Source: a bacterium
GTDB taxonomy: Bacteria; Actinomycetota; Acidimicrobiia; Acidimicrobiales; CATQHL01
Length of the DNA stretch: 43,731 nt
Assembly: GCA_026708055.1 (NCBI GenBank)
Contig: JAPOVS010000034.1
Coordinates: 1 to 43,731 of the forward strand
Reading direction: 5' to 3'
A model generated the notes under the pieces. It was not told the DNA's origin. It made no database searches and saw only the letters and a list, made by a program, of their open reading frames with translations. How positions within the stretch are numbered: the stretch's first letter is position 1; each line of letters starts with the position of its first letter. The position numbers and the translations under genes are program-made. Below are positions 8,732 through 32,950 of the stretch, in pieces.

Positions 8732-10771
8732 TCATGGGGTGACGTCCTGCAGGTAGAGGGCGCCGAGCGGGTTGGGTGCAACGCCGCCGTACTCGCCGAG
8801 GTGCACCCACGGCAGCACGGTCTCGACCAGCGGCACGTACGGCACGTCGCTGGCCAGCAACGACTGCATCTTCGACAGCAGGGCGTCCCGGGCCGGCCCG
8901 AGGGGCTCGGCCACGATCCGGCCGAGCAGGTCGTCCACCGCCTCGCTGCCGTAGCCCTCGAGCTTGACCGACATCGGTCCGACGGCCAGCAGCAGGAAGT
9001 AGGCGACGTCGTTCACCAGCGGCCGGGTTCCGAAGAGCCAGGCCTCCAGTTCGCCGCCGCGGGTTGCGGTGTTGAAGTCGGCCGGCGAGCTGATCAGGTC
9101 GATGTTGACGCCGATGCCCACGTCGCGCAGCTGATCCTGGATCAGCACGGCCACCTGCTCGGCGTAGGGCCCCGGACCCGAGCTGGGGTTGATCGACAGC
9201 GTGAAGTCGAAGCCGTCGGCCAGCCCCGCCTCGGCGAGCAGCGCCCTCGCCGCCTCCGGGTCGTGGCGGGCCGCCACGTCGGTCGGCGGATCGGGCTGCG
9301 GGATCGCCGTCGAGATCGGGTAGAGCCCGGGCTTGCCGAGACCGGCGTACGCCCCGGCGATGAGGGCGTCACGGTCGATGGCCAGCGAGATGGCCTGGCG
9401 CACGCGCACGTCGTCGAACGGCGCGAAGCGGGTATTGAGCGACAGCTTGTCCAGGTTCACGTCCAGCCCGGCGATCGGATCGATGCCGTCGCCGCCGGCC
9501 GCCACGACGCTCTGGAACAGGTCGAATGTGAGGCCGCCCACGAAGTCCACCTCGCCGGAGCCCACCAGTAGCATGCGGTTGCCGGCGTCGGGCACTGCCC
9601 GCATGACCACGTTCTCGATGGCCACGCTGCCGGCGTTCCAGTAGTTCGGGTTCTTGGTGAGACGGATCTCCTCGCCGGGGATCATGGACTCCACCTGGTA
9701 GGCGCCGTAGCTGGCCGAGTTGGTGGCCATCCACTCCTGTGCCCACGGGTCCTCGTCGGTGGCGTGGGCCTGCGCCTCGACGCTGTCGATGATGCCCATG
9801 CCGTACCAGGTGAGGACCGGCAGCGTGAGTGAGTTGGCCGACGGCGCCACGAGCCGGAAGGTGCGGTCGTCGATCACCTCGATCGGGTTCTCGCGGTCGA
9901 TGCCGCCGACGCTCAGCAGGAACGGCGTGATGAAGTCGGTCTCCAGGCCTCGCTGGAAGGTCCACAGCACGTCCGAGGCCGTCGCATGGTTGCCTGCCGG
10001 GCTGAGCGCCTCGCGCAGCGTGAAGACATAGCTGCCGCTGTCCTCCTGCGTCCAGGATTCGGCCAGTTCGGGCTGCAGGTCGGCCGGACCCTGCAATGCC
10101 GTGGCCCCGGCGGGCAGCGGCACGTAGCGCACCAGCGTGCTCACCACGCTCTGGGTGGTCTCCCCGGTCGGCCGGCCCTGGTACACCGCCGGGTCGACGT
10201 TGGACGGGACGGCCGGGAAGATCATCGTGAACGTCACCGGCTCGGGTTCCGGCGGGGGAGGTGGCGGCGGTGGCGGGTCGGGCGCGGCTGCGGCCTCAGC
10301 CTCTGCTGCCGCCTCCTCGGCTGCGGCCCGGGCCTCCTCGGCCTCGGCCCGGGCCTCCTCGGCCTCGGCTTGGGCGGCTGCGGCCTCGGCTTGGGCGGCT
10401 GCGGCCTCGGCCTGGGCGGCTGCGGCCGCGTCCTGCGCCTCCGCCAGCGCCGCTCGCGCCGCCTCGACGGCGTCCTCGTTGCCCTCGGCGGTGGCCTGGG
10501 CCAACTCGGCGGCGGCGATCGCCTCCTGCGCTCGGGCCGCGGCCGCCGAGGCTTCAGCGTCCGCCGCGGCCGCGGCGGCGTCGGCGGCGGAGGCAGCGCT
10601 GTCGGCGGCGGAGGCCTCCGAGCGTGCCGCCTGCGCCTCGGCCAAGGCGTCCGCAGCGGCAGCGGCTGCGGCGTCGGCCTCGCCGGTCTCGGCCTCCGCG
10701 CATGCCGCGGCCACGAGCGCGAGCGCGGCTGCGAGCGCGGCAAGTCGATAGCTGATCTTCCGTGGCCTCAT
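8732..10771 (-). CDS. Stalked ABC-importer solute-binding lipoprotein (SBP_bac_5 family), copy 1
   Basis: This predicted lipoprotein captures peptide- or opine-like solutes outside the cell. The 679-aa chain has a signal peptide with lipobox AAAC (Cys24). Residues about 31-163 are almost pure Ala/Glu/Gln helix with a 7-residue period. A proline spacer covers residues 164-178, and the family-5 binding domain starts at about 180 (SNVDPAVYQGRPTGE, LAESWTQEDSGSYVFTLREAL, VRQAISLAIDRDALI). The open frame begins 63 codons upstream, but ATG 10771 has GGGGGAG about 7 nt ahead and leads directly into the signal peptide. No permease or ATPase is adjacent, so it may feed the transporter at 35378-39675, whose own binding proteins have the same build. 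The DNA of the stalk carries 21-bp tandem repeats. Confidence 0.9.
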   Translation of the reverse strand: MRPRKISYRLAALAAALALVAAACAEAETGEADAAAAAAADALAEAQAARSEASAADSAASAADAAAAAADAEASAAAARAQEAIAAAELAQATAEGNEDAVEAARAALAEAQDAAAAAQAEAAAAQAEAAAAQAEAEEARAEAEEARAAAEEAAAEAEAAAAPDPPPPPPPPPEPEPVTFTMIFPAVPSNVDPAVYQGRPTGETTQSVVSTLVRYVPLPAGATALQGPADLQPELAESWTQEDSGSYVFTLREALSPAGNHATASDVLWTFQRGLETDFITPFLLSVGGIDRENPIEVIDDRTFRLVAPSANSLTLPVLTWYGMGIIDSVEAQAHATDEDPWAQEWMATNSASYGAYQVESMIPGEEIRLTKNPNYWNAGSVAIENVVMRAVPDAGNRMLLVGSGEVDFVGGLTFDLFQSVVAAGGDGIDPIAGLDVNLDKLSLNTRFAPFDDVRVRQAISLAIDRDALIAGAYAGLGKPGLYPISTAIPQPDPPTDVAARHDPEAARALLAEAGLADGFDFTLSINPSSGPGPYAEQVAVLIQDQLRDVGIGVNIDLISSPADFNTATRGGELEAWLFGTRPLVNDVAYFLLLAVGPMSVKLEGYGSEAVDDLLGRIVAEPLGPARDALLSKMQSLLASDVPYVPLVETVLPWVHLGEYGGVAPNPLGALYLQDVTP
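10324..10428. repeat. Five 21-bp tandem units coding for the stalk heptads
   Basis: Units begin at 10324, 10345, 10366, 10387 and 10408. The first two are identical to each other, as are the third and fourth. Each unit codes for seven residues of the Ala/Glu helix, so gain or loss of a unit changes stalk length by one heptad without a frameshift. Confidence 0.85.
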
Positions 10772-10910
10772 CGGGCAATCTCCCCCTCTGGACGAATGGA
10801 AATCGCCGGACACCTTACGCGCTGGCGCCCGGTCGTTCCCGTGGAAGCTCGTGCGCACTGTCGGGCCGTCCGGGCAGCGACCCCGGTGGCGCTCCCGCGG
10901 CCTCCGTCCC

Positions 10911-10936
10911 GTCGTTCCGGCGGAAGCCGGAACCCA
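10911..10936. repeat. Interspersed palindromic repeat, copy 5 (opposite orientation)
   Basis: GTCGTTCCGG and GCCGGAACCCA arms are the reverse complement of the other short copies. It lies in the 201-bp gap upstream of the solute-binding protein gene. A weaker partial copy may sit near 10831-10849. Confidence 0.55.
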
Positions 10937-10972
10937 TCGGTCTGCGACCGGGCTCACCATGACCGGCGGGGC

Positions 10973-18926: not shown

Positions 18927-20474
18927 CTAGGAGCCAGCTTTCCGCCTGAACCACTCGGAGGCGTCGATCCCGGCGCGGGACGCTGCCGATGTGAGTCCCT
19001 GGACGGCTTGGGATGCCAGTTCAGGCCGTAGTCGGGTGACCGCTCGGTACTCGGTCGCTCGGCGCTCGGCGTCATCGACGGATGTGAAGCGCCAGTCCGA
19101 GGGTTGGCCGTGGGCGACCACTGCGCCGGCACAAGTCGGCTTGAACTTAGGCATGGCAAGTTTGTGCGGAGCCGTGTCGAACCGAATGCGGACCAGTGTG
19201 TTCTCCGGGGAGCGAATCACGGCTTCCGGGTTTTGCTCGTCCGGACGGAGTCGCAGCATCGGAAAGGCGCGGCAACCTTTGAGTCGAACGCTGTCGCACA
19301 GAGGCTGTATGCACAGCCAGTAGCTGCCGGACTCATCGCGAAGGACCACGCCGAGTTCGAGCCGTGGCGCTTTCTGGCCGAAGTCACTGGAACTCATCAT
19401 GACGGCGAGTGTCTCGCTTGAGGCCTCACCATTACCGAACGCGGCCGTCAGATCATCGACCGCCTTGGTTACCGCCGAGTCGCCCAAACCGATTCCCGGC
19501 AGGCCACTGACGATTGCCTCTCGCGCCAATAGCTCGTCAGCAAGGGCCTTCACGTCCGACGAGACGCTTTCCGACCGCCTCAGCCGCTCTGCAAGTTCGC
19601 TTGGACTCCCGCCGCTCGTTGTCCGCGTCAGTGACTCAGCCACAGAATCGATGGTCCAGACGTCACCCACGAGCGCGTCGTGCAGTGCTCGCTCGAGGTC
19701 GCCGGCGAGCAGGCGGATGAACTGGGGTCCGGCGTCGTCGGCTTGCGGCAGCAGAGCTCGGTGCACGAGCCCTCCGGCGTCCAGATCGGACCCGAAGTTC
19801 GTAAGAATCCTCGGAGTGGAGTCGCGCACTGCGTTGACGCCGCGAAAAACGAACTGAGGCATGAGCCCCCCGACGATCATCTCAAGGTCGTCTCGTATCC
19901 GCGCCGGAAGATCGCTATATGGGGCAGTCCTCCAATCCTCGCCGCCGACCAACGTGATTCCCGGCTTCCCGAAGACGAGCACGACCGTGTTCTCGCATCG
20001 CAGTACGAAGTCGTGAGTCTCCTCGAAGTCCGTTTCCTCCGTGAGGCGGTCGACGATGGCACTCAGCCGTGGCGCTCCGGTGAAGATGACGACGACTGTC
20101 AGACGACCCTTGTTCGCCTCGGCGACTTCGGAGATCATCCCGATTGTCCTGGTGTCGTCTCCGAACAGCAGCCAGTCGAGTATCAGCAGGTCGGCAATTT
20201 GAGCACCCTGACGAGCCAGAGCCATGAGATCGGACTCACTATCGTGTGGCTGGAGGACACCGCACACGATTCCCTCGGCGATGAACGCATTGACAAGCTC
20301 CGCTGGGTGGACCGGTGTTGCGTCATCAGCCGGAGGGGAAACGAGGCCGGGCTGCGGCTCGACGGGGAGGCCAGCTGTCTCGTCGGCGCCGAGTTCCTCC
20401 AGCGGGCTGTGGTAGCCCTGCACGCGATCGTCTATGACCAGCGCTGTGCGGAAGTATTCGCTGATTGCGGTCAT
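18927..20474 (-). CDS. Receiver-domain protein of the vsr/methyltransferase/GHKL operon
   Basis: This 515-aa protein has an N-terminal receiver-like domain with all expected residues: the acidic pair Asp15-Asp16 in ALVIDDR, the phosphoacceptor Asp100 in DLLILDW, Thr132 in VVVIFTG and the Lys170-Pro171 pair in VLVFGKPG. The gap between the acidic pair and Asp100 is about twice that of standard receivers, so it is a divergent form. I recall a Pfam family called Response_reg_2 that this may match. Residues about 180-515 match no DNA-binding or enzyme family I know. ATG 20474 overlaps the stop of the kinase-like gene by 4 bases, so the two are made together. The likely role is output of a phosphorelay tied to a DNA modification system. 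Confidence 0.7.
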   Translation of the reverse strand: MTAISEYFRTALVIDDRVQGYHSPLEELGADETAGLPVEPQPGLVSPPADDATPVHPAELVNAFIAEGIVCGVLQPHDSESDLMALARQGAQIADLLILDWLLFGDDTRTIGMISEVAEANKGRLTVVVIFTGAPRLSAIVDRLTEETDFEETHDFVLRCENTVVLVFGKPGITLVGGEDWRTAPYSDLPARIRDDLEMIVGGLMPQFVFRGVNAVRDSTPRILTNFGSDLDAGGLVHRALLPQADDAGPQFIRLLAGDLERALHDALVGDVWTIDSVAESLTRTTSGGSPSELAERLRRSESVSSDVKALADELLAREAIVSGLPGIGLGDSAVTKAVDDLTAAFGNGEASSETLAVMMSSSDFGQKAPRLELGVVLRDESGSYWLCIQPLCDSVRLKGCRAFPMLRLRPDEQNPEAVIRSPENTLVRIRFDTAPHKLAMPKFKPTCAGAVVAHGQPSDWRFTSVDDAERRATEYRAVTRLRPELASQAVQGLTSAASRAGIDASEWFRRKAGS

Positions 20475-23371
20475 CGGCGCCTCTCTCGCTCCTTAATTCT
20501 TGGACGGATCAGGAACTCCGTGCCGCCATCGCGGTCGCCGAGGTGGATCGACCACCCGGCACGTTCGAGGACCTGGCTCGCAATTGCCAGACCGAGGCCG
20601 CTTCCGCCGGGCTTGGTGGTGAAGCCGAAGTCGAACACCCGGTCGGCTATGTCCGCCGTAATCCCGGGACCGCTGTCTCGGTAGACGAGCGTGTCGCCGC
20701 GCTTGTCGAGTTCAATGACCTGGGTCGATCCGGCCGAGTCTCGCTGGATCCAGTACAGGCTGTTGTCGACCAGGTTGATGAACACCGGATAGAAGGTGGA
20801 GGTGTAGCCCTCGAGTCTGGCGGCTTGAAACTCCCGGCTCGGACGGATCTCGACGCCCACGTCCGCCAAGCGGTCTCGGAATAGCTCGTCGAGGTAGCGC
20901 GAGATGTCGCTTCCCTTGATGGTCGTCGGGGTGCGCCGCAGCCGCCGCTGCATTGGCGTGAGCAGCGTGAGATAACTCTCGAGATGGTCGATGTCTCGTC
21001 GCAGGTCTTCGTAGAGTCTGACGAGTTGCGGGTTCTTCTTCGCCCACGCCCCAACTCTTCGCACGTCGCTGCGGATACTGGAGATGGTGGCCTGGAACTC
21101 GTGGTCGACGACGGCCAGAGCCATGCCGAGTTGCACGAGTTCCAATTGCGCGTCCGCTTGGGCGCGTAGTTCGACGATCTCGGCGTCTGCGGCGGCGGCG
21201 AGTTCGGTGGGATCGGGTGCCCCGCTGCTGAAGACGAGCCTGCTCGATTGGACGAGGTTGACGACCCGTATGAGCGCTCTCCTGGATTCGGTTGCCAACG
21301 CGTCCACTGCCTGCTCGAACCGGGCCTGATCCTGGATCCATCCGCTGCTGGTCGAGGTAGTTGGCACGGCTATGGCGTCGAGTTGCCTGTTGAAGTCCTC
21401 GCGGAGTCCCGCCAGAGTGGCGCGCACGGCGGTGGCCAGTCCCGCCAATGCGCTACCGGCCTCTCCTTGGGCTTCGCTGACTCGGCTCCTCGCCTGCGAG
21501 ATGCGGCCCTCGACGAACTCGCGCCGTTCCCTCTCGTCCGCTTCGAGGGCGGCCAGCCGCTTCTCGGTGGTCGCGACCAGGTCGTCGACGGTCTCCAAGG
21601 CCGGCCGGACGTACGATCTCTCGATCTCCTCGATGCCGCGTTCGAGGGTCGTCATGTCCCGGCGCATCGGCTCGGTCGGAGCGAAGCCCTCGGGCTCGTC
21701 GAATTCCAACGACATTGTGAGTTGACGTAGTGCCCACCTCGCAGCGGCAACACGCTGAGAGGCGGGTTGAAGTCGGTCACAAGTGTCGAGTTCCGCCGCG
21801 AGCGTCTGCACGATCCCCGCCGTCTCCTGTTGGAAGTTGGTCTCGTTGAGGTACTGCACCCCGCCAGCAAGCTGGGCGCGCAGTCTTCGCCGTCCCTCCC
21901 TGGCTCGCTTATCGCGTTCCTTGCGTAGTGCATCCTCCCTCGCGAGCCGCTGCCGGCCCTTCTCGTAGGCCCCGACCCGAGGGCTCTCGGCCCGGAAGAA
22001 CGTTGCCGCGAGTTCCACGAAGAGGTTGATAAGTAGACCCCTGAAGTCCGAGTATGCGCGACCCTGGGTGAATCCCTCCCTACCCGCCTTCTCTTGCAGG
22101 GTGTTGTTGTGTTCGGTCGACAGACTGACGGCACCGAACATCCGCCTGTAGGAGAAGTAGTAGTAGCCAGCACCCAGCGTTCGCCGTTCCTCGATTTCCA
22201 GATAGTCCACGTCGGGGCGGCCATACGGCTGGACGCGGATGCCGTCCATGTAGACGTAGAGGCCGCCGAGTTGGCGAAGCCGGGTTGTCATCGTCGCGAA
22301 CGCGTCCGGTTCGAGTCGCGATTCACTTCGTTCGCCCTGAACGACTCCGAGTTCGAACGCGAAGCACCCGCATCGTGGCCGCAACGGTTTCGGACACGGG
22401 ATGTCGACGTCGGTTGGTTCTTCGTCGAAGATCCGGATCGTTCCCAGGAAATTGCCGTTCTCGTCGAATTCGCCGAGGACGTGGTGATCTGCTGACTCGA
22501 AGTCGGACGTGCCGAAGAAGTCGCCGGGCTGCAGGAGGCTCTCGTCGTCGCCGCCGTAGCGGTGATCGACGAAGTCGACCGAGAACTCGGGCGTGGTCGG
22601 GCTCCCGAGCCACACGTCGGTGAAGCCGTGCAGCGTCCTTTCCAATGACGAGGCGTCCTCTGCTCGTGGGCTCTCGAGTTCGGGGGGTAGGTCCTCGGAC
22701 ACCGGGGAGATGAGGAACACCGTGCCGCTCGTCCTGATCGGTTCCAGATCGGGCAGTGCCCGGTAGGGATCGTCAGGTATGGCGTCGAGGGCCGCCAGGA
22801 TCTCGTCCATCCGGTGTGACCACGAGGCCGAGGTGTCCAGCGCACGGAAGTTCGCGACGGCCTCCGCGATCGGTGTCTTCAGCTGGCCCACGTCAGCCGC
22901 AGTGAGGTCGCCGGAGTCCAACTCGACGAGCCCGACGGGCACCTCATCCAGGTCCACACGCGGCAGCTCGAACATCTTCCAGCTGACGAGCGCGGCGACC
23001 GCGGGATGACCGTCCCGCTTGGATACGACGAGCACCTGGCTGCCGAGAGCGCCGATGGCGAGACGCCCGATGCCCTTCTCGCCGAGTTGGACCCTCGGCC
23101 GCATTCCCGGCGGTGCCGACGTCGAGCCGCGTTCCAACTTCGACTCGGTGGCGATGGTGAGCCAGTGCTTCTCGAAGGTCTCCCGATCCATGCCGACGCC
23201 GTCGTCGCTCACGACGAGCACGTTGTGGGATCGGAAGAAGTCCGCGATCGCAACGGTGGCATACGCGTCGTAGGAGTTCTTGAAGAGTTCGCTCAGCGCG
23301 GTCGGCAGGCTCGCGATCTGCTGCCTCCCGAGCATGTCAACCGCCCGCGCTCGGGCACGGAAGCGAGTCAT
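20471..23371 (-). CDS. Dual-GHKL protein: MORC/MutL-like ATPase plus histidine-kinase module
   Basis: This 966-aa protein has two separate GHKL ATP sites. The first, residues about 20-180, is MORC/MutL/Hsp90-like: ELFKNSYDAYA (Glu28, Asn32), DDGVGMD (56-62) and GEKGIGRLAIGALG (97-110). The second, about 857-966, is a kinase catalytic domain: NLVDNS, DSGPGI, FDFGFTTKPGGSGLGL. Between them are a beta-rich part and a long Arg/Glu/Ala coiled coil (about 490-740), then DHEFQATISSIRSD with His757 as the likely phospho-acceptor. The HEF motif fits a Pfam family I recall as HEF_HK. The open frame extends upstream, but ATG 23371 overlaps the methyltransferase stop (ATGA) and begins the ATPase domain. 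MORC-type ATPases are known beside restriction-modification genes. A role in defence is inferred. Confidence 0.82.
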   Translation of the reverse strand: MTRFRARARAVDMLGRQQIASLPTALSELFKNSYDAYATVAIADFFRSHNVLVVSDDGVGMDRETFEKHWLTIATESKLERGSTSAPPGMRPRVQLGEKGIGRLAIGALGSQVLVVSKRDGHPAVAALVSWKMFELPRVDLDEVPVGLVELDSGDLTAADVGQLKTPIAEAVANFRALDTSASWSHRMDEILAALDAIPDDPYRALPDLEPIRTSGTVFLISPVSEDLPPELESPRAEDASSLERTLHGFTDVWLGSPTTPEFSVDFVDHRYGGDDESLLQPGDFFGTSDFESADHHVLGEFDENGNFLGTIRIFDEEPTDVDIPCPKPLRPRCGCFAFELGVVQGERSESRLEPDAFATMTTRLRQLGGLYVYMDGIRVQPYGRPDVDYLEIEERRTLGAGYYYFSYRRMFGAVSLSTEHNNTLQEKAGREGFTQGRAYSDFRGLLINLFVELAATFFRAESPRVGAYEKGRQRLAREDALRKERDKRAREGRRRLRAQLAGGVQYLNETNFQQETAGIVQTLAAELDTCDRLQPASQRVAAARWALRQLTMSLEFDEPEGFAPTEPMRRDMTTLERGIEEIERSYVRPALETVDDLVATTEKRLAALEADERERREFVEGRISQARSRVSEAQGEAGSALAGLATAVRATLAGLREDFNRQLDAIAVPTTSTSSGWIQDQARFEQAVDALATESRRALIRVVNLVQSSRLVFSSGAPDPTELAAAADAEIVELRAQADAQLELVQLGMALAVVDHEFQATISSIRSDVRRVGAWAKKNPQLVRLYEDLRRDIDHLESYLTLLTPMQRRLRRTPTTIKGSDISRYLDELFRDRLADVGVEIRPSREFQAARLEGYTSTFYPVFINLVDNSLYWIQRDSAGSTQVIELDKRGDTLVYRDSGPGITADIADRVFDFGFTTKPGGSGLGLAIASQVLERAGWSIHLGDRDGGTEFLIRPRIKERERRR

Positions 23372-24495
23372 GCTGCGGCGTGCATCAGCGGCCCCGAGAC
23401 GGAAGCGCCGGGAGAGTCCTCGTCCCTGGAGTCGTCCTCGGCCACACGTCGGGCCTGTGCGACGTGCTCCACTAGGTGCCGCCCGAAGTGCCGCGCGAGG
23501 ACGACCGGTACCGCATTGCCGATCTGCCTGGCCTGGGAGGTCAGGCTTCCGGCGAACTCGAATGAGGTGGGGAAGGTCTGTAGTCGCGCTGCCTCCCGAG
23601 CGCTGAGTGCCCGATCCTGGGATGGGTGGCCGAAGCGCCCGTTGCTGTAGCTGATGCACCTCGTGGTCAGCGCCGGTGCCGGCTTGTCCCAGTTGAGTCG
23701 GCCGTATACGTCGGTGTGACCTTTGAAGCCGTCTCGATGGCAGTCGGACCAGAGTCGTGCTGGCCAGTCCCGGCGGTCGCCGCCCTCCGGCGTCGCCCGG
23801 ATCCGCTCGAGGTTCAACTTCGAGAGCCTCATGGATCGATGGCTGCTGATGTCGGACTCCCTCTGCCCGGCCGTGATCGGAGGAAGCGAACCGATCCACT
23901 CCCTCACCGTCGAGTGCGAGCATCCGGCTGCCGGGCCGTGAGAGGGACCCGGCAGATCGATCGGTCCGAGGCGGCTGGCCACGAGCACGAGCCGGCGTCT
24001 CGTCTGGGGCACGCCGTAGTCGGCACTGCAGACGGTGCCGTAGCTCACGTGGTGCGTCCTGCCCAACTCCTCCACGAAGTCGGCGAACGGACCCTCCGAA
24101 GCTGATACCCGCTGCATTCCGGGCACGTTCTCCACGAAGATCAACTCGGGGTTGAGGGCCGTCACGAACCGGAGGAACTCGATCAGCAGGAACGATCGGC
24201 TGTCTTCGGCCAACGGCTGCTGCCGGTGTCCGGCGAACGGCTGGCACGGGGCGCACCCCGCGAAGAGCATGACCGATTCCGATGCCGGCTGCAGCAACTC
24301 GCCCACGTCGGCGACGCGTACTTCACGGATGTCTTGCTCGATGACAGGTGTGGCCGGGAAGTTCATCCGGAAGGTCGTCACCGCGTCGCGATCCCAGTCG
24401 ACTGCCAGCATCGGGGAGATGCCCGCGTCGGCGAATCCACGCGTCGTGCCTCCACAGCCGGAGAAGAAGTCCGCGAGGGCGATATCGACGCTCAT
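23368..24495 (-). CDS. C5-cytosine DNA methyltransferase (Dcm family)
   Basis: This 375-aa enzyme transfers methyl from SAM to C5 of cytosine. Motif I is DFFSGCGGTTRGF (9-21), the catalytic motif IV is FAGCAPCQPFAGH (Cys84), motif VI is FVENVPGM (Glu122), motif VIII is QTRRRLVLVA, and motif X is near RQIGNAVPVVLARHFG. The recognition region lies between about residues 185 and 300. The frame runs upstream to a TTG at 24555; ATG 24495 has GAGG about 8 nt ahead and begins directly before motif I. It sits between vsr (154 bp upstream) and the dual-GHKL gene (4-base overlap). Vsr repairs T:G mismatches left when such methylated cytosines deaminate. The target sequence is unknown and no classical restriction nuclease is adjacent. 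Confidence 0.92.
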   Translation of the reverse strand: MSVDIALADFFSGCGGTTRGFADAGISPMLAVDWDRDAVTTFRMNFPATPVIEQDIREVRVADVGELLQPASESVMLFAGCAPCQPFAGHRQQPLAEDSRSFLLIEFLRFVTALNPELIFVENVPGMQRVSASEGPFADFVEELGRTHHVSYGTVCSADYGVPQTRRRLVLVASRLGPIDLPGPSHGPAAGCSHSTVREWIGSLPPITAGQRESDISSHRSMRLSKLNLERIRATPEGGDRRDWPARLWSDCHRDGFKGHTDVYGRLNWDKPAPALTTRCISYSNGRFGHPSQDRALSAREAARLQTFPTSFEFAGSLTSQARQIGNAVPVVLARHFGRHLVEHVAQARRVAEDDSRDEDSPGASVSGPLMHAAA

Positions 24496-24649
24496 TTCGG
24501 GTGCCTCGGTGGTGCTCAGCACGGAAGTTCGCCCCTTGTCATCACGGCCTGCCAAGCTACTTCACCAGATGGGTGTGACATCACGCGCTGCATGGACCCG
24601 AGCGGCTGGAACCCCGTGCCCAGCGGTGCCGAGAGGCCAACGATGGTGC

Positions 24650-25075
24650 TCACCGCTGGAGTTCCAGTCGGCGCCGAGTGTGCGCCACCTGCACGCGGTC
24701 GGCAGCGGTTGCAATCTCGTGCTCCCACAGGCGCAGGGACTCCCAGCCGTGCTCTCGGAGGAGGCGATCGGTGTCCGCGTCGCGTGTACGGTTCATCTCG
24801 ATCTTGTCCCGCCACCACTGCGAGTTGGTCATCGGCCATGTCGCATGTGTCGGGCAGCCGTGCCAGAAGCAGCCATCCACGAAGACAGCGAGCCGGATCC
24901 CGACGAACGCGATGTCGATTGACCTCTGGGGGTTACCTGGAACCGGGTATCCCACTCGATAGCGCATGCCGCGGCGATGGAGTGCGCGTCGAAGCACCAA
25001 CTCGGGCTCAGTGTCGCGGGTGCGCTGCCGCGACATCCGTGACGAGGCGGGTGCTCTGGTGCGACTGTCGATCAC
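24650..25075 (-). CDS. vsr: Very short patch repair endonuclease (Vsr)
   Basis: Vsr nicks DNA at T:G mismatches within methylated sites. Family motifs are clear: MSRQRTRDTEPELVLRRALH, then SIDIAFVGIRLAVFVDGCF with Asp54 as the likely catalytic residue, then WHGCPTH with zinc-site Cys69, His72 and Cys74, and WWRDKIEMNRTRDADTDRLL. GWESLRLWEHE ends the core. The length of about 141 aa from GTG 25075 is normal. The frame continues to 25150 and an ATG at 25036 is also possible. The gene precedes the cytosine methyltransferase on the same strand, the usual pairing. In this operon it is the only obvious nuclease, so it could also serve as a restriction arm; that is an inference. Confidence 0.92.
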   Translation of the reverse strand: MIDSRTRAPASSRMSRQRTRDTEPELVLRRALHRRGMRYRVGYPVPGNPQRSIDIAFVGIRLAVFVDGCFWHGCPTHATWPMTNSQWWRDKIEMNRTRDADTDRLLREHGWESLRLWEHEIATAADRVQVAHTRRRLELQR

Positions 25076-25349
25076 TGCGACAGAGGCAGCGTAGCCGGAG
25101 CCGGGGCAGTGTTCCGTCGGGTGCGCGGCCTGCCGGGGAGTCGCATGCACCGGGAAGACCCCTCGATCGAGTGCCGTCGCCAGTCGCTCTCGGCTCGGCC
25201 CGACGGCGTTCGCTAGTTTCTAGGGCTTGTGAGGACGCAACTCGCCAGGACGAGACGTTGCGTTGCTTCCGGGTGCCGTCTCGGCAGTGCGATCCTGTCA
25301 TTATTGCCGAGATCTCCGCGTTAGATCAGAAGTCATCGGGGTGATCAGC
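25076..25349. promoter_or_regulatory. Divergent promoter region between vsr and hsdM
   Basis: The two defence systems fire in opposite directions from this gap of about 270 bp. It has short AT-rich patches on the plus strand (TAGTTT near 25213, and TTATTGCC near 25308) that could belong to promoters. GGGGTG ends 6-8 nt before GTG 25350 and likely sets the hsdM start. No operator repeat was seen. Confidence 0.4.
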
Positions 25350-28019
25350 GTGGGTGGAGATGTAATCAATAATCACGCTGGGTTCATCTGGTCTGTGGCG
25401 GACTTGCTTCGGGGTGTGTACAAGCAGTCGGAGTACGGGCGGGTGATCCTGCCGTTGACGGTGCTGCGTCGGTTGGACTGCGTCTTGGAGCCGACGAAGG
25501 CCGACGTGCTGGAGTTGGTCGAGGAACTGCCGGTCTCGCTGCAGAACCGGGATCCGCTGCTGAAGCAGGCGGCGGGGCAGTCGTTCTTCAACACGTCGCG
25601 GCACACGTTTGCGACGCTGCTGGGTGATCCGGACAACGTCGCGGGGAACCTGCGCAATTACATCGCGGGGTTCTCGGAGTCGGCTCGGGACATCGTCGAC
25701 AAGTTCAAGTTTGACGTGCAGATCGACCGGCTTGACGACCGCAACCTGCTGTATCTGGTGGTGTCTAAGTTCGCCGACATCGATCTGAGTCCCGAGACGG
25801 TGTCGAATCTGGAGATGGGGTACCTGTACGAGGAGTTGATCCGCAAGTTCTCCGAACTGTCGAACGAGACTGCGGGCGAGCACTTCACGCCGCGCGAGGT
25901 GATCCGGCTGATGGTGAACCTGCTGTTCGTCGACGACGACGAACTGCTGACCAGGCCCGGCGTCGTGAAGACCCTGCTCGACCCGGCGTGCGGCACCGGC
26001 GGGATGCTCTCGGTCGCCGAAGACCACCTCCGCTGGCTCAACCCGCAGGCCAGTCTGAAGGTGTTCGGCCAAGAGTTGAACGACGAGACCTACGCCACCT
26101 GCCGCGCCGACATGCTGATCAAGGGTCAGGAGGCCGCCAACATTCGCTTCGGCAACTGCTTCGACGATGACCAGCACCAGGGCGAACGGTTCGACTACCT
26201 GCTGGCCAACCCGCCGTTCGGGGTGGAGTGGAAGATGGTGGCCGACATGGTTCGGGACGAGCATGCTCTCCAGGGCTTCGCGGGCCGCTTCGGTGCCGGT
26301 CTGCCCCGCATCAACGACGGCAGCTTCCTGTTCCTGCAGCACATGATCTCGAAGATGAAGCGGCCCGAAGAAGGCGGCGCCCGGCTGGCGATCGTGTTCA
26401 ACGGCTCCCCGCTATTCACTGGCGGGGCCGGATCCGGCGAGTCGGAGATCCGACGCTGGATCATCGAGAACGACTGGCTCGAAGCCGTCGTCGCTCTGCC
26501 AGATCAACTCTTCTACAACACCGGCATCTCCACCTACTTCTGGATCATCACCAATCGCAAGGCTTCCAAGCGCCGGGGCAAGGTTCAACTCATCGACGCT
26601 CGCGAAAGCTTCACCAAGATGCGCAAGAGCCTCGGCGAGAAGCGGAAGGAGATCTCCGACGCGCAGATCGACGAGATCACCCACCTTTACGGAGCCTTCG
26701 AGGAGAGCGCGCAGGTCAAGATCTTACCCAACGAGTCATTCGGGTTCCTGCGTATCACCGTCGAACGCCCTCTACGCCTCCGCTGGGAGATCACTGACGA
26801 CACGCTCGCCGCCGTCAAGGACAACGGGAAGCTCGCAAGGATCGGCGCGGAACAGCGGGAGGCCCTACTCAAGAAATTCCGAGCCTGCCACGGCGCGGCC
26901 CGCACCAGCGAAAAGGCTGCCCGAGAACTCGCCGAAGAAGTGCTGCTATCAGCAGGTATAGACAAGACCGCGGCGCGCGTCAAAGCTGTCATGGGCAGTC
27001 TCGCCATCCGAGATCCCGAAGCTCCGATTCTCATGGACCGCGCTGGCGATCCTCAACCCGACCTTGATCTGCGAGACTACGAGAACGTCCCGCTGCCCAA
27101 AGTCAGCGTGACCTTCGAAGCTGATCCGACCGCCCGACTTGACACGGTCGAATACCACACGGCTGTCGACGACTACATGGCCTGCGAAGTCATACCCTAC
27201 GTTACGGATGGATGGTACGAATCCACCAAGACAAAGATCGGCTATGGAATCCCCCTCACCAAATATTTCTACAATCAGATTGTACTTCGCTCCCTAGTTG
27301 AAATCGACGCAGAGATGGTTGCGCTGGTCGAGCGCTTGCGACAACGACACGCATCGTTAGGTTCCGAGACGCTGCAGCAAACGAAAAACAAGACGAGAGC
27401 AGTACGCCTAAAGAATGTTGCAGATATTCGCGTTAGCAATGTTGACAAGAAGACTGTTGAAGGCGAGCTGCCTGTCCGCCTAATGAACTATACGGAGGTC
27501 TACTATGGCGACCGGCTAGTTCCGGAGTTAGACTTGATGAACGCGACCGCCAGCAAGAGCCAATTGAAGTCATTTCGCCTCATACCTGGTGACGTTATCA
27601 TTACAAAGGATTCGGAGACACCTGATGATATCGGAGTCGCCGCATATGTTGAGAGATCATCGGACAATCTCGTGTGTGGGTATCACCTAGCTATTATCCG
27701 TCCGAACCCGGATCTTATCGATGGCAGATACCTCTATTGGTCGATGTGTTCTGCCGATGTAGCTCGACAGCTGTCGTCTAGTGCAACTGGGATTACGCGG
27801 TTCGGGCTTCGAATTGATGCAATTGCGGACGTAGAGATTGAGATCCCATCACTGACAGTACAGCGCGAGATTGCGGATCACCTCGATGCGCAGACGACTC
27901 GAATCGATGCCTCTATCGATGAATTGCAGACACAAATCGAACTCTCGCGCGAATACCGGCATGTACTAATCACAGATGCGATAGCTGGCGAACCGCCGAG
28001 CGCGAGTGATCCGGGATGA
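25350..28019 (+). CDS. hsdM: Type I restriction methyltransferase fused to a single-TRD specificity domain (HsdM-HsdS)
   Basis: This 889-aa fusion methylates adenine and should also choose the DNA site. The N-terminal HsdM part has SVADLLRGVYKQSEYGRVIL, GEHFTPREVIRLM, the SAM motif DPACGTGG (211-218) and the catalytic NPPF (287-290). The HsdM end is seen at PLTKYFYNQIVLRSL. From about residue 680 a type I specificity domain follows: RLKNVADIRV, FRLIPGDVIITKD, IPSLTVQREIADHLDAQTTRID. Only one target-recognition domain is present, so two copies or a dimer would be needed for a two-part site. This last third drops to about 50% GC (29 and 31 of 60 in two lines counted) against 77% in a line of hsdR. 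GTG 25350 is chosen by its ribosome site; GTG 25341 is possible. Confidence 0.88.
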   Translation: MGGDVINNHAGFIWSVADLLRGVYKQSEYGRVILPLTVLRRLDCVLEPTKADVLELVEELPVSLQNRDPLLKQAAGQSFFNTSRHTFATLLGDPDNVAGNLRNYIAGFSESARDIVDKFKFDVQIDRLDDRNLLYLVVSKFADIDLSPETVSNLEMGYLYEELIRKFSELSNETAGEHFTPREVIRLMVNLLFVDDDELLTRPGVVKTLLDPACGTGGMLSVAEDHLRWLNPQASLKVFGQELNDETYATCRADMLIKGQEAANIRFGNCFDDDQHQGERFDYLLANPPFGVEWKMVADMVRDEHALQGFAGRFGAGLPRINDGSFLFLQHMISKMKRPEEGGARLAIVFNGSPLFTGGAGSGESEIRRWIIENDWLEAVVALPDQLFYNTGISTYFWIITNRKASKRRGKVQLIDARESFTKMRKSLGEKRKEISDAQIDEITHLYGAFEESAQVKILPNESFGFLRITVERPLRLRWEITDDTLAAVKDNGKLARIGAEQREALLKKFRACHGAARTSEKAARELAEEVLLSAGIDKTAARVKAVMGSLAIRDPEAPILMDRAGDPQPDLDLRDYENVPLPKVSVTFEADPTARLDTVEYHTAVDDYMACEVIPYVTDGWYESTKTKIGYGIPLTKYFYNQIVLRSLVEIDAEMVALVERLRQRHASLGSETLQQTKNKTRAVRLKNVADIRVSNVDKKTVEGELPVRLMNYTEVYYGDRLVPELDLMNATASKSQLKSFRLIPGDVIITKDSETPDDIGVAAYVERSSDNLVCGYHLAIIRPNPDLIDGRYLYWSMCSADVARQLSSSATGITRFGLRIDAIADVEIEIPSLTVQREIADHLDAQTTRIDASIDELQTQIELSREYRHVLITDAIAGEPPSASDPG

Positions 28020-31000
28020 ATTCAACTAGTGAGGTGGCGTTCGAGGAGCACGTCGCGTTCTGGCTCGTCTCACATGGCGGCTATCGTCGGGTGAAGGTCG
28101 GCAACGTGGGGGTTGGGCCGCGGGACTTCGATGCTGAGGCGGGCGTCGATACTGCTGATCTGTTCGAGTTCATCGGGGCCACGCAGGGGCGCGAGTGGGG
28201 TCGGCTTGTGGATTCGGCGTACGGGGGTGACCCGGACGGGGCGCAGGCGGGATTCGTACAGCGGCTCGCGTCGGAGTTGGATCGGCGGGGGACGGTGGAC
28301 GTGCTGCGTCGCGGCGTGGTGGATCGCAACTTCAAGATCCGGTTGGCGTTCTTCAAGCCCGCCCATGGGCTGACGCCGGAGTTGGCGCAGCGCTACGAGG
28401 CGAACGTGCTGTCGGTGACCCGGCAGTTGCCGTTCGATCCGTCGAGTGCGCGGACTGTTGATCTGGGGCTGTTCGTGAACGGGATTCCGGTGGCGACGGC
28501 TGAGTTGAAGAATCCGCTGACGGGCCAGACCGTCGAGAACGCCATTGCCCAGTACCGAACCGACCGTCCAGACACGAATAGGACGCTGGGCCGGCTGGGG
28601 ATGGTGCACTTCGCGGTCGATCCGTTCTTGGTGGCGATGACCACGCGTCTCGCCGGCAGGCAGACTCGGTTCCTGCCGTTCAATCGGGGCCACAATCTCG
28701 GCGCGGGGAACCCGCCGAACCCCGGTGGGCATGCCACTGCCTATCTGTGGGAGCAGGTGTGGTCTCGGGATGCGTGGATGGACATCCTGGGCCGGTTCAT
28801 CCATGTGGAGAAGCCGTCGAAGGGGTCCAAGGCTCGCCCGGAGGTGATCTTCCCGCGGTTCCACCAGTGGGACGCGGTACGGCGGTTGGAGGCCGACGCC
28901 AAGCAGCGGGGGACGGGCCGGAGTTGTCTGGTGCAGCACTCGGCAGGGTCGGGCAAGTCGAACTCGATCGCTTGGTTGGCGCACCGGCTGTCGTCGCTGC
29001 ACACCGACGACGACGTGAAGGTGTTCGACAAGGTGGTGGTGATCACCGACCGTGTGATTCTCGACAGGCAACTGCAGGACACCATCGGCCAGTTCGAGCA
29101 CGCCGTCGGCGTGGTGCAGCGCATCGACGAGGACTCCGCGCAGCTCGCCGCGGCGCTGGCCGGGGAGCAGGCCCGCATCATCGTGACGACGCTGCAGAAG
29201 TTCCCGTTCATCTTCGACAAGATCGAGTCGTTGCCTGACCGCAGCTACGCGGTGATCGTGGACGAAGCGCACTCGTCGCAGACCGGCGAGGCGGCCACCG
29301 AGTTGCGCCGGGTGCTGGGCACCGCCGAGCCGGACATCGACCCCGACGCCGAGACGACCGACGCGGAGACGCTGCTGGCCGCGGCGGTGGCGGCGCGGGG
29401 CCACCAGCCCAACCTGTCGTTCTTCGCGTTCACCGCCACGCCCAAGGGCCGCACCCTGGAACTGTTCGGCGAAGTCGGCGCCAGCGGCAGGCACGAGCCG
29501 TTCCACCTGTATCCCATGCGCCAGGCCATCGAGGAAGGGTTCATCGAGGACGTGCTGGCCCGCTACGTGACCTACAACCAATACGTCCACCTGGAGAAGA
29601 CGATCCTGGAGGACCCGGCCTACGACACCGCCAAGGCCCGCAGCGCGCTGGCCAAGTACGTGGCCTTCCACCCCGAGAACCTGGCGCAGAAGGCCGAGAT
29701 CATCGTGGAGCACTTCCGCACGAAGATCGCGGGTCAGATCGGCGGGCAGGCCAAGGCGATGGTGGTGTGCTCGTCGCGGCCTCACGCTGTGCGGATGTGG
29801 GAGGCGCTGCGCCGCTACGCCGCCGACTTGGGCTACGGGCTGGGGGTGTTGGTGGCGTTCTCGGGGGAGGTGGAGGGCCTGACCGAGACGAAGGCCAACG
29901 GCTTCGGTGAGTCGCAGACCGCCGAACGCTTCGACACCGGCGACTGGCAGATCATGGTGGTGGCCGAGAAGTTCCAGACCGGCTTCGACCAGCCGAAGCT
30001 GGCGGCCATGTACGTCGACAAGACCCTCACCGGCCTCGCTGCGGTGCAGACCCTGTCGAGGCTCAACCGCACCCACCCCGACAAGTCCGGCACCTTCGTG
30101 CTGGACTTCGTCAACGACGCCGACGCCATCGGCGAGGCGTTCGCCGTGTACCACGGCAAGACCGTGGCGCCGCCCACCGACCCGAACCTGCTGTTCGACA
30201 CCCGCCGCGGCCTCGATGCCTTCGGCGTGCTCGACACCGGCGAGACGGCGCGGACCGCCGCGCTGGTGCTCGGCGACGGCAACCACGCGCAGGTCCACGC
30301 TGCGCTGCAACCCGCCGTCGACCGCTTCGACGGACTCGACGAGGACGACCAGGAGGTGTTCCGGGACGCGCTGGCGCGGTTCGTGCGCGTCTACAGCTTC
30401 CTTTCGCTGGTGGTGCCGTTCCGCAACGCCGACCTCGAACGCGACTACCTGTACTGCCGGGCGCTGGCCGCGCTGATCCGGGGCCGCCCGCCCGGCCAGG
30501 GCATCGACCTGGGCTCGGAGGTGGAACTCACCCACCTGCGCCACGAACTGACCTTCGAGGGCTCCGTCGGGCTGCCCGCCGGCGAGGGCGAGGTCAGCAC
30601 CATCTACTCCGGCACCGGGCCGCAGACCGATCCCGAACAGGAACCCCTGTCGCAGATCATCGCCCGCATAAACGAGCGCTTCGGCACCGACTGGACCGAC
30701 GAGGACCGCCTCGTGTTCGAGGCCGCCGCCGGCGACCTTGTCGACGACGCCGAGATCCAGAACCAGGCCCTCAACAACGACGAGGCCACGTTCCGGGACC
30801 ACGTCTTCCCCGAGCGCTACCAGAAAGCGCTGCTGTCACGCGGCGACCGCAACAGGCAGCTCGTCTACGACTACCTCGACAGCGCCGACCTGCAGGCCGA
30901 GATCGTCGCCATCTTCGCCGCGAGCGTGCAGCAACGAGCCATCGTCGCCCGCCAGCGGACCTGCCCCATCGGCGACCTCCTCGGCACCGACCGCGAGTCG

Positions 31001-31468
31001 CAGTTCCTCGAGTACAAGTCCACGCTGCGCTGGGACATCAACCGTCAGAGCAAGGGTGGCGCTCCTGAGGACGCGGCCATCAAGACTGTCGCCGGCTTCG
31101 CCAACTCCGAATTCGGCGGCACCCTCCTCGTCGGCGTCGCCGACGACGGCACCGTCTGTGGCCTTGAAGACGACTACGCCACCTTCTCTGAGCGCGGCCA
31201 GAAGGGGGACCAAGACCTCTGGGGCCAGCACCTCCAGAACCTCATCCGCAGCCGCCTCGGCGACTCCGCCCTCGCGCTCGTCACCTGGCAATTCCACACC
31301 ATCAACGGCGACCAACTGGCCCGCATCAGCATCGGCCCCGCCAACCACCCCGTCCACGAACGCACGGGCGAACAGCGGATCCTCTGGCACCGAACCCCCA
31401 CATCCACCATCGCCGTCACCGACCCCCAAGAACAAGACCGAATCATCGCCCGCCGCTGGCCGGCGTGA
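28016..31468 (+). CDS. hsdR: Type I restriction subunit HsdR with C-terminal Schlafen/AlbA_2 domain
   Basis: This is the translocating and cutting subunit, 1150 aa. The N-terminal nuclease has Asp149, Glu163 and Lys165 in ATAELKNP. The helicase has Walker A HSAGSGKS (308-315), DEAH (416-419), FFAFTATPKG and EKFQTGFDQPKL. After the usual HsdR C-terminus, residues about 985-1130 form an AlbA_2 (divergent AAA-4/Schlafen core) domain: ESQFLEYKSTLRWD (Glu994, Glu999, Lys1001), GFANSEFGGTLLVGVADDG, and GDQLARISIGP. Such domains bind or cut nucleic acids in other proteins, so a second effector is possible. ATG 28016 overlaps the hsdM-hsdS stop by 4 bases. A copy of its last 30 or so codons lies at 33783-33873. 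Confidence 0.9.
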   Translation: MNSTSEVAFEEHVAFWLVSHGGYRRVKVGNVGVGPRDFDAEAGVDTADLFEFIGATQGREWGRLVDSAYGGDPDGAQAGFVQRLASELDRRGTVDVLRRGVVDRNFKIRLAFFKPAHGLTPELAQRYEANVLSVTRQLPFDPSSARTVDLGLFVNGIPVATAELKNPLTGQTVENAIAQYRTDRPDTNRTLGRLGMVHFAVDPFLVAMTTRLAGRQTRFLPFNRGHNLGAGNPPNPGGHATAYLWEQVWSRDAWMDILGRFIHVEKPSKGSKARPEVIFPRFHQWDAVRRLEADAKQRGTGRSCLVQHSAGSGKSNSIAWLAHRLSSLHTDDDVKVFDKVVVITDRVILDRQLQDTIGQFEHAVGVVQRIDEDSAQLAAALAGEQARIIVTTLQKFPFIFDKIESLPDRSYAVIVDEAHSSQTGEAATELRRVLGTAEPDIDPDAETTDAETLLAAAVAARGHQPNLSFFAFTATPKGRTLELFGEVGASGRHEPFHLYPMRQAIEEGFIEDVLARYVTYNQYVHLEKTILEDPAYDTAKARSALAKYVAFHPENLAQKAEIIVEHFRTKIAGQIGGQAKAMVVCSSRPHAVRMWEALRRYAADLGYGLGVLVAFSGEVEGLTETKANGFGESQTAERFDTGDWQIMVVAEKFQTGFDQPKLAAMYVDKTLTGLAAVQTLSRLNRTHPDKSGTFVLDFVNDADAIGEAFAVYHGKTVAPPTDPNLLFDTRRGLDAFGVLDTGETARTAALVLGDGNHAQVHAALQPAVDRFDGLDEDDQEVFRDALARFVRVYSFLSLVVPFRNADLERDYLYCRALAALIRGRPPGQGIDLGSEVELTHLRHELTFEGSVGLPAGEGEVSTIYSGTGPQTDPEQEPLSQIIARINERFGTDWTDEDRLVFEAAAGDLVDDAEIQNQALNNDEATFRDHVFPERYQKALLSRGDRNRQLVYDYLDSADLQAEIVAIFAASVQQRAIVARQRTCPIGDLLGTDRESQFLEYKSTLRWDINRQSKGGAPEDAAIKTVAGFANSEFGGTLLVGVADDGTVCGLEDDYATFSERGQKGDQDLWGQHLQNLIRSRLGDSALALVTWQFHTINGDQLARISIGPANHPVHERTGEQRILWHRTPTSTIAVTDPQEQDRIIARRWPA

Positions 31469-31656
31469 CCAGGACGCGGGTTCTCCGTCGCACAGCGGGG
31501 GTCACCGCGTCGGCTGTATCGGGGGTCACCCCGGCGACTCCGTTCCTCCATCATCTCGGTGACGGTGCGCATCTCCTGGCGGTCTTCGCCGTCGGATTCC
31601 AGTGCCTCGACCTCGGTGGCGAGCGCTCGGTTCTCCCGGGGCCAGCTGCCGGTCAT
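31174..31656 (-). CDS. Doubtful small ORF overlapping the DUF4143 ATPase stop
   Basis: ATG 31656 overlaps the ATPase stop as ATGA. The first 38 or so residues (MTGSWPRENRALATEVEAL, then DGEDRQEMRTVTEMMEE) have protein-like composition. The frame then runs antisense into the hsdR end for 295 bp, where it is probably not coding. Positions 31486-31519 resemble the 3' part of the OppF-like gene in the same orientation. It is most likely gene debris, or a short gene that lost its stop. Confidence 0.2.
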   Translation of the reverse strand: MTGSWPRENRALATEVEALESDGEDRQEMRTVTEMMEERSRRGDPRYSRRGDPRCATENPRPGHAGQRRAMIRSCSWGSVTAMVDVGVRCQRIRCSPVRSWTGWLAGPMLMRASWSPLMVWNCQVTSARAESPRRLRMRFWRCWPQRSWSPFWPRSEKVA

Positions 31657-32939
31657 TGGTCTCCGCCCAGCGCGCCCGCCGGGGTCCAGAGGGCGTCGAG
31701 GGGGAGGAGGGTGAGGCGGTCGCCGAGGCTGAGGCGGTGGGGCCCCGTGTGCAGCACGAAGCCGTGGACGAAGTCGGCACCGATGCGGTCGAGTCGGTCT
31801 CGCAGCCAGGCGAGCCACCGGAAGGCGTCGGGTCCCGGTGAGATGGCCGCCTTCACCTCGATGGCGACGATGCGCCCGTCGGGCCGTTCGAGAATGAGAT
31901 CGATCTCAGGCCCGTTACGGTCGCGGAAGTGGTGGAGTCGTGCGCCGCTTTCGTCCCAGGTGAGTTGCTTGGCGATCTCGTTGGCGGCGAACGTTTCGAC
32001 GAGTTGCCCGACGGACGTGTCGGTGGGGCGCGCCAGGGCGGCGGGGTCCTTGTTGGCGAGCGTCGCCGCGAGGCCGCTGTCGCTGAGGTAGAGCTTGGCG
32101 GCTCTGGCTGCCTTGTTGGACAGGTTGCGTGACCACCGGGGGACGTGGTGTACGAGGAAGACGGTTTCGAGCCAGGCGAGGTAGGTGGCCACGGTCCGAG
32201 CGTCGAGACCGACTCCGCGGGCGAGGCGGGCGATGTTCAGTTCTTGGCCGGTGAGTGCCGCCACAGCGCTCAGCGCGGGCGCGATGGCGTCGGCGCGCCG
32301 GATGTCGGCCAACTCCACGATGTCCCGCCGGGCGACGGTGTCGACGTAGTCGCGATGCCAGCGGCGGCGCTGGGCGGGGGAGAGTTCCCTGGTGGTGGGA
32401 TAGCCCCCGGCGCAGATCAGTTCCAGGTACCGGTCGCGGGTGTGCGCGCCCGGCGGTCCGGCTCGGAGAGCGTCGGGATTCTCGAAAGCCAGGCGGGTGA
32501 AGGTCTCGGGGCCGCCCCGGGCGAGTTCGCCCTGCGAGAAGGGCCACAACTCGAGGATGCCGACTCGCCCGGCGAGTGACTCCGACAGGGTGGGCACGGT
32601 CAGGAAGTTCGTCGAACCGGTGATGAGGAACCGCCCCGGTACCGGATCGAGGTCGACCGCCATCTTGATGGCCCTGACGAGCGGGTCGCCTGCTCGCTGA
32701 ATCTCGTCGATCACGAGCGGAAGGGGTTGAGCGACGAAACCGACAGGGTCGTTGCGGGCCGCGTTGAGCAGTGCCGGGTCGTCGAGGGTGACGAACGTGC
32801 CGCCGATCCGCTCGGAGGTGAGACGCGCCAGGGTCGTCTTGCCTGCCTGGCGGGGACCGTGGATCAGCGTGACACGGGAGGCTCCGAGCACGGCGTCCAG
32901 TGAGATCGAAGCATGCCGGGGCAGCAGGGACGTGGACAT
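31653..32939 (-). CDS. AAA_14/DUF4143 ATPase
   Basis: This ATPase of about 428 aa belongs to the widespread family with an N-terminal AAA_14 core and C-terminal DUF4143. Walker A is GPRQAGKTTL (28-37), Walker B is LPLVIDEIQ, and sensor-like RFLITGSTNF follows. A winged-helix region (LTGQELNIARLARGVGLDA) precedes the DUF4143 part, which ends in a nuclease-like strand set, GPEIDLILE and RIVAIEVKAA. The biological role of the family is not established. ATG 32939 is chosen; GGGAGG abuts it, and TTG 32948 is an alternative. TACATT, a possible -10, lies 13 nt upstream inside the first unit of the repeat array at 32951-33039, so those repeats probably control this gene. A collapsed copy lies at 35158-35280. 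Confidence 0.85.
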   Translation of the reverse strand: MSTSLLPRHASISLDAVLGASRVTLIHGPRQAGKTTLARLTSERIGGTFVTLDDPALLNAARNDPVGFVAQPLPLVIDEIQRAGDPLVRAIKMAVDLDPVPGRFLITGSTNFLTVPTLSESLAGRVGILELWPFSQGELARGGPETFTRLAFENPDALRAGPPGAHTRDRYLELICAGGYPTTRELSPAQRRRWHRDYVDTVARRDIVELADIRRADAIAPALSAVAALTGQELNIARLARGVGLDARTVATYLAWLETVFLVHHVPRWSRNLSNKAARAAKLYLSDSGLAATLANKDPAALARPTDTSVGQLVETFAANEIAKQLTWDESGARLHHFRDRNGPEIDLILERPDGRIVAIEVKAAISPGPDAFRWLAWLRDRLDRIGADFVHGFVLHTGPHRLSLGDRLTLLPLDALWTPAGALGGDQ

Positions 32940-32950
32940 CCCTCCCAAGG

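Follow-up and report, generated by a model that had tools for sequence, protein, structure and literature searches.

A MORC-like ATPase/histidine kinase, its receiver partner and a C5 DNA methyltransferase: a conserved three-gene unit with a predicted phosphorelay and a candidate effector domain

Introduction

We consider an operon in a stretch of 43,731 bases (the window), which is an entire contig from a genome of 87 contigs. All of its genes lie on the minus strand, in the order vsr, C5 DNA methyltransferase (MTase), MORC-like ATPase/histidine kinase (the GHKL protein, 966 aa) and receiver protein (515 aa). From their sequences and predicted domain folds, it is nearly certain that the kinase protein and its partner belong to the predicted HEF_HK/Response_reg_2 paraMORC family linked to C5 MTases. 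The conserved unit is made of three genes: MTase, kinase and receiver. The best explanation for this unit, to which we give an even chance, is a methylation-guided defence or restriction system that is gated by a phosphorelay.

The window locus is a member of a published, genome-predicted system, and the discovery itself is already published. The HEF_HK/Response_reg_2 pair, including its association with C5 MTase and Vsr, was described by Bellieny-Rabelo et al. in 2021 (PMC8011034), in a search restricted to Bacteria; its authors state that the receiver partner had gone unnoticed until then. They report a linkage of 91.6% over 644 regions, with upstream C5 methylases dominant and Vsr in 20 genera, suggest a two-component system tied to restriction-modification (R-M), and speculate on signalling cascades that control R-M. 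What is new here is the three-gene core, the near-invariant phosphorelay residues, the conserved MTase target region, the C-x4-C-D motif of the output domain, the count of copies in E. coli, and a second family.

Results

The operon and its neighbourhood

An earlier reading made from the letters of the window (the sequence-only reading) described four minus-strand genes of which the last three overlap by 4 bases. The open reading frames, frames and overlaps are exactly as given there, and both junctions are ATGA (Table 1). About 154 bases separate vsr from the MTase start codon. A type I R-M pair identified by Pfam, divergent and on the other strand, adjoins the operon (HsdMS, 25263-28019; HsdR, 28016-31468); this neighbour, which lies beyond the region taken up by the sequence-only reading, brings its own nuclease subunit. 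HsdR (plus strand) carries a Schlafen AlbA_2 domain at its C-terminus; the gene paired with it encodes an HsdM-HsdS fusion. Also near these defence genes are a DUF4143/AAA_14 ATPase (31656-32948, minus strand) and an AAA_16 protein with weak nSTAND1 similarity (33966-35114, plus strand), and the window contains three SBP_bac_5 solute-binding proteins (8735-10960, 39877-41922 and 41937-43442, all on the minus strand). The nearest named relatives of the locus in our survey of GTDB contigs are Acidimicrobiia MAGs.

Table 1. Coordinates of the genes, junctions and protein modules of the operon in the window
Feature	Position	Strand	Start codon or landmark	Basis or description
vsr	24650..25075	-	GTG start at 25075 (from the sequence-only reading); longest frame from 25150	very-short-patch-repair endonuclease
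C5 cytosine DNA methyltransferase, 375 aa	23368..24495	-	ATG at 24495	Pfam DNA_methylase
MORC-like ATPase/histidine kinase (GHKL), 966 aa	20471..23371	-	ATG at 23371	HATPase_c_3 + HEF_HK + HATPase_c
Receiver protein, 515 aa	18927..20474	-		Response_reg_2 in Pfam
ATGA 4-base overlap, C5 MTase stop / GHKL start	23368..23371	-		sequence
ATGA 4-base overlap, GHKL stop / receiver start	20471..20474	-		sequence
N-terminal MORC/MutL-like ATPase + S5 module, residues 1-470	21962..23371	-		VIA-align fold match and conservation
HEF_HK phosphoacceptor helices + kinase catalytic domain, residues 745-960	20492..21139	-	His757 codon 21101-21103	Pfam HEF_HK + HATPase_c
Receiver domain, residues 7-202	19869..20456	-	Asp100 codon 20175-20177	VIA-align and conservation
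Output domain, residues 203-515 (313 residues)	18930..19868	-		helical then beta-rich (from model); conservation

The kinase protein and its receiver partner

The GHKL protein matches three Pfam models above their curated cut-offs (HATPase_c_3, 4.4e-15; HEF_HK, 2.5e-23, 82.8 bits against a cut-off of 24.1; HATPase_c, 4.9e-17), and the adjoining gene, with its 4-base overlap, matches Response_reg_2 (1.6e-19, 71.2 bits against a cut-off of 27), so that the two profiles anticipated by the sequence-only reading are both found. In the AlphaFold model of the GHKL protein (mean pLDDT 80), residues 1-470 align by VIA-align with MORC3 (Z 21.9, rmsd 3.6, 334 residues) and also match MORC2/4, SMCHD1, Hsp90 and MutL, while residues from about 745 to 960 match solved histidine kinases with a Z of about 17-18. 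These matches bear out the earlier description of a dual-GHKL protein with a MORC-like ATPase and a kinase module. The ATPase residues E28, N32, D35, D56, G58, G60, K99 and K428 are invariant in 78 homologues, and so, in 78 of 78, are H757, E758, N866, D869, N870, F913, G923, G925 and G927 of the kinase module, which include the N-box and the G-rich loop. The DHEF box occupies residues 756-759, with His757 at the place that had been read for it.

With a GHKL domain and an S5 module, intact ATP-binding motifs and a position beside R-M genes, the protein has the defining properties of a paraMORC. The S5 motif of the MORC proteins proper (GhXhhpXXRhl) is absent: read by eye, residues 370-380 are GLYVYMDGIRV with the Arg one place late, and the homologue consensus shows the same deviation.

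The receiver protein is modelled by AlphaFold with a mean pLDDT of 91, and its residues 7-202 match solved receivers of the CheY/OmpR type (VIA-align Z about 11). The acidic pair, phosphoacceptor, Thr and Lys listed by the sequence-only reading stand at the positions given and are invariant or nearly so across homologues (D15 and D100 in 75/75, D16 and K170 in 74/75, T132 in 72/75). With H757, E758 and the N-box kept in all 78 kinases and D15 and D100 in all 75 receivers, the relay looks active, as far as conservation of residues can tell. Such canonical residues would also suit a regulatory two-component system, as suggested in PMC8011034, where the GHKL-receiver pair would sense the state of the cell or a shortage of MTase and control the expression or activity of the MTase or of nearby R-M genes, with no effector role; the speculation there on signalling cascades over R-M points the same way. 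The receiver protein, however, gives no match in Pfam to a helix-turn-helix or other known DNA-binding output domain, and the nearby R-M genes vary by locus, which leaves the MTase as the one possible constant target. We consider the regulatory explanation unlikely.

Survey across genomes

A scan of GTDB contigs with a kinase profile gives 238 relatives; the 80 best of these, together with the window and an order-mate, make 82 loci, the top third by similarity, in which distant variants are under-represented. Across this set (best 80 of 238, plus 2) the receiver gene is adjacent downstream of the kinase in 82/82 loci and a C5 MTase lies directly upstream in 76/82; the pairing is therefore not chance, and what the sequence-only reading had observed is confirmed. 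Its expectation of a four-gene order stands in part: MTase, kinase and receiver recur together elsewhere, and vsr, near 35 of the 82 loci, does not belong to the constant set. Many phyla are represented among the survey loci, and three of the loci lie on archaeal MAG contigs, from Methanosarcinaceae (L048), Methanoperedens (L058) and Methanosarcina (L064), with contamination possible. Two MAGs carry two copies of the operon each (L011 and L020 in p16x63bins.58; L049 and L054 in Albidovulum bin36). Within the phylum of the window, a Response_reg_2 gene is present in 3 of 396 genomes. In phage records the kinase finds no more than partial or weak matches.

The Vsr of the window is a true family member (Pfam, 2.8e-17; TIGR00632, 99.7 bits against a cut-off of 97.85) and aligns to E. 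coli Vsr (1cw0). Its position near other cores is variable, upstream on the same strand in 15 loci; among the 11 closest acidimicrobial loci (L010-L020) it occurs in L015 only, and it is absent near the two E. coli copies examined. The sequence-only reading had named Vsr as a possible effector. Because it is found at just 35/82 loci, Vsr is optional and so probably not the effector, and we discard it as a candidate on this patchy occurrence. It may instead be an optional repair companion of the MTase, which would remove T:G mismatches left by deamination. The same counts bear on the idea of a DNA maintenance unit, in which MTase, Vsr and a MutL-like ATPase would sense deamination damage and the relay would signal repair. 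While a genuine Vsr and a MORC/MutL-like ATPase fold agree with it, Vsr is not seen in 47/82 loci nor in most close relatives, and the patchy distribution, on islands and plasmids, is not what such a unit would lead one to expect; we regard it as very improbable.

The genes flanking the core are diverse and often of defence type, matching models of Hma, GajA/PtuA, and type I and type III R-M systems (Pfam, PADLOC). No recurring separate nuclease gene is seen beside the core among the neighbours scanned with Pfam and PADLOC, and a separate neighbouring nuclease is therefore set aside as the effector, which is probably inside the GHKL/receiver pair. In one locus (L026) an HNH gene lies immediately downstream of the core. 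The setting is defence-like, with the type I R-M neighbour, defence-type flanks, patchy distribution and a mobile context such as the integrase and tRNA near the operon of E. coli A19 (L126:7900-13640).

The A19 genes are annotated as DNA cytosine methyltransferase, ATP-binding protein and "response regulator receiver domain". The operon, at least 80% covered at one place, is present in 194 of 5,426 complete E. coli genomes, UTI89 among them. The MTase and receiver queries each match 195 genomes, and the genes are therefore co-inherited. Several copies are disrupted. In STIN_95 an IS1 lies in the GHKL gene and the receiver is lost, in AHB2 an IS1 truncates the receiver gene, and in NCTC10444, 1446, 1447 and 1442 the GHKL or receiver gene is split (possibly by sequencing error); all of these keep the MTase. 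In E. coli E14 (L130), an IS1 has deleted the MTase gene's 5' half and left GHKL and receiver intact, with the promoter possibly lost too. This copy is a natural test of whether the kinase-receiver pair is toxic without the mark. That the disrupted copies mostly keep the MTase fits the logic of R-M, a point that this sample of copies makes only suggestive.

The methyltransferase and its target

The MTase of the window (Pfam DNA_methylase, 5.8e-50) keeps the residues of the PCQ, ENV, Q-x-R-x-R and GNAVP motifs. It supplies the DNA methyltransferase component of a type II R-M system; for the cognate endonuclease, Pfam recognises no nuclease domain in the GHKL or receiver protein. Of 75 linked MTases, 69 fall in one clade, which has one unlinked control inside it (support 0.895); the six outside (L006, L042, L062, L063, L075, L083) may be replacements. 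In ordinary R-M methylases the region between motifs VIII and IX sets the target specificity and diverges most, and our control MTase pairs agree, with 16-20% identity in this region. The linked pairs have 37-39% there (linked and control pairs are compared at 30-40% identity of their catalytic parts). The window MTase has 61.5% identity to the distant L028 in the target-recognition region against 48.9% in the catalytic part, and 51.9% against 46.6% to the E. coli MTase. Clustering gives a main group of 52 and a second group of 17. Since conservation is as high in the recognition region as in the catalytic part, the linked MTases probably recognise one or very few DNA sites across phyla, as would be expected if the partner proteins depend on one fixed mark. 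We found no published 5mC methylome of a carrier E. coli; an ST131 methylome paper deals with other MTases.

The identities of the three proteins can be compared over 52 non-acidimicrobial loci, with shared ancestry inflating all values: the Mantel Spearman correlation is 0.62 for GHKL and receiver, and 0.33 and 0.30 for MTase with GHKL and with receiver (all p 0.001). The output domain of the receiver protein tracks the kinase module more closely (partial correlation 0.43, controlling for the MORC module) than it does the MORC module (0.10). The recognition region of the MTase likewise tracks the kinase module (partial 0.35) and not the MORC module (-0.07). The candidate signal that we looked for, co-variation between the MORC module and the MTase recognition region over and above what the kinase module accounts for, is thus not there, and reading of the methylation mark by the MORC module is not supported by the co-variation test.

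The output domain of the receiver protein

The domain that follows the receiver has the invariant residues D232, G375, C388, C393 and D394 and the near-invariant residues R217, R397, R500, E507 and R510, which give it a motif of an invariant C-x4-C-D followed by a near-invariant Arg. Pfam finds nothing above cut-off in the output domains of six homologues, a PDB sequence search with the receiver-protein profile finds no match, and PDB and BFVD fold searches with the whole model, in which the receiver part dominated the results, return only receiver-type or weak matches. Across the 396 genomes of the phylum, a search for output domains that lack a receiver gives only the three genomes already known to have Response_reg_2. 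In a genome of the same family, the receiver gene (L009:1252-3012) consists of two separate open frames, seemingly the result of a frameshift. We take the output domain as a candidate for a new effector.

The invariant D232, D394 and C388/C393 could also be those of a nuclease, the GHKL-receiver pair then being a two-subunit ATP-dependent restriction enzyme in which kinase and receiver are structural or allosteric. This would agree with the missing separate nuclease gene and with a match of GHKL residues 10-129 to the BbrUII/HgiDII restriction enzyme model NF050001 (2.7e-16), though at 59 bits against a cut-off of 550. Against it, neither protein has a nuclease domain or motif recognised by Pfam, nor does the whole receiver model, and the complete active sites of both kinase and receiver are retained from phylum to phylum, more than an allosteric role would require. 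We therefore find this enzyme rather improbable.

A second family on plasmids

A tblastn search of plasmids with a HEF_HK kinase also matches Campylobacter plasmids. The Campylobacter kinase (736 aa) has HATPase_c_3 and HATPase_c but gives no match to HEF_HK; its gene overlaps that of a receiver protein of 340 aa and faces that of a C5 MTase; an example is L136:5986-10451 on the Campylobacter jejuni plasmid NZ_CP044170.1. The plasmid-type receiver protein occurs in 44 plasmid records, of which Campylobacter accounts for 41; likewise 41 of the 44 are predicted to be conjugative. None of the viral contigs searched has it. A Hymenobacter plasmid has the order vsr, C5 MTase, kinase, receiver protein, and an Enterobacter mori plasmid has the kinase-receiver pair with no annotated MTase nearby. 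A Fusobacterium record also carries a relative of this kinase/receiver set.

The kinases of this family have a common H-E-G-R box where the others have HEF. In the output parts of their receiver proteins a P-x-C-D is invariant, which resembles P391-x-C393-D394 of the window protein. By hhalign, the output domains of the two families align at the P-x-C-D motif and the C-terminal helix with a probability of 7-27% (P 0.0007-0.005), which is only suggestive of homology. Built on the same logic, the second family makes it more credible that a MORC-type ATPase, a kinase, a receiver and a C5 MTase go together.

Discussion

Relation to known systems

The window locus shares with the published HEF_HK/Response_reg_2 system both domains, their adjacency, the group 1 architecture (HATPase_c_3+HEF_HK+HATPase_c) and the link to C5 MTase and Vsr, and differs in that vsr leads the operon and that a type I R-M system, divergent from it, lies alongside (PMC8011034). 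To that work we add the conserved MTase recognition region, the conserved output domain, the archaeal MAG loci and the HEF_HK-less sister family. The sequence-only reading had pointed out that MORC-like ATPases are known beside R-M genes; indeed, R-M operons that contain MORC or paraMORC ATPases, together with Vsr, were reported by Iyer et al. (2008, PMC2292703). The window protein has the N-terminal GHKL ATPase with S5, the MORC-like fold and the nearby C5 methylase and Vsr of that group, but is without the MORC-defining S5 motif and adds a histidine-kinase module and a receiver partner. The likeness to BbrUII/HgiDII is confined to the N-terminal GHKL ATPase, and no restriction-enzyme domain is found in the window protein. 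VcSduA (Shedu, paraMORC3; PMC12137116) also has a GHKL ATPase, proposed there to control a defence effector, and its antiphage activity was shown; it has, however, its own PD-(D/E)xK nuclease, and neither a histidine-kinase module nor a receiver partner is described for it. In a literature search over published, mostly open-access papers, only two papers mention both domains by name, and neither an experimental test of the HEF_HK/Response_reg_2 system nor a description of the HEF_HK-less family was found.

A proposed mechanism

We infer phosphotransfer, DNA sensing by the MORC module, an effector role of the output domain, and a function in defence. In the phosphorelay-gated system that we prefer, the MTase would mark a single, constant site in the DNA of the host. 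A dimer of the MORC-like ATPase would clamp DNA and, coupled to ATP binding, tell marked from unmarked (foreign) DNA; the state of the MORC module would set the autophosphorylation of His757 in the fused kinase. The phosphate would then pass to Asp100 of the receiver partner, and phosphorylation would free the C-terminal domain to act on invader DNA or on the cell, so that a His-Asp relay would stand between recognition and effector. This mechanistic part is plausible and held with somewhat less than even confidence. More tentative is the full statement that a His-Asp phosphorelay, and not direct cleavage, may link a MORC-like clamp sensing unmethylated DNA to the new effector domain with its cysteine motif, with one near-universal target, and that this arrangement may have evolved in at least two families (the HEF_HK type and the shorter type of conjugative plasmids).

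Three observations count against the defence system. No nuclease or other effector fold is identified by Pfam or by the whole-model fold searches. E. coli E14 keeps its kinase-receiver pair with half of the MTase gone, which lethal restriction would forbid unless the same event silenced the pair. The MORC module, finally, lacks the co-variation with the MTase recognition region described above.

If the relay is active, restriction or defence would here be gated by phosphotransfer, an arrangement that no paper found in the literature search just delimited describes. The occurrence of the operon in well-studied E. coli strains opens phosphotransfer, the target site and the phage phenotype to direct testing.
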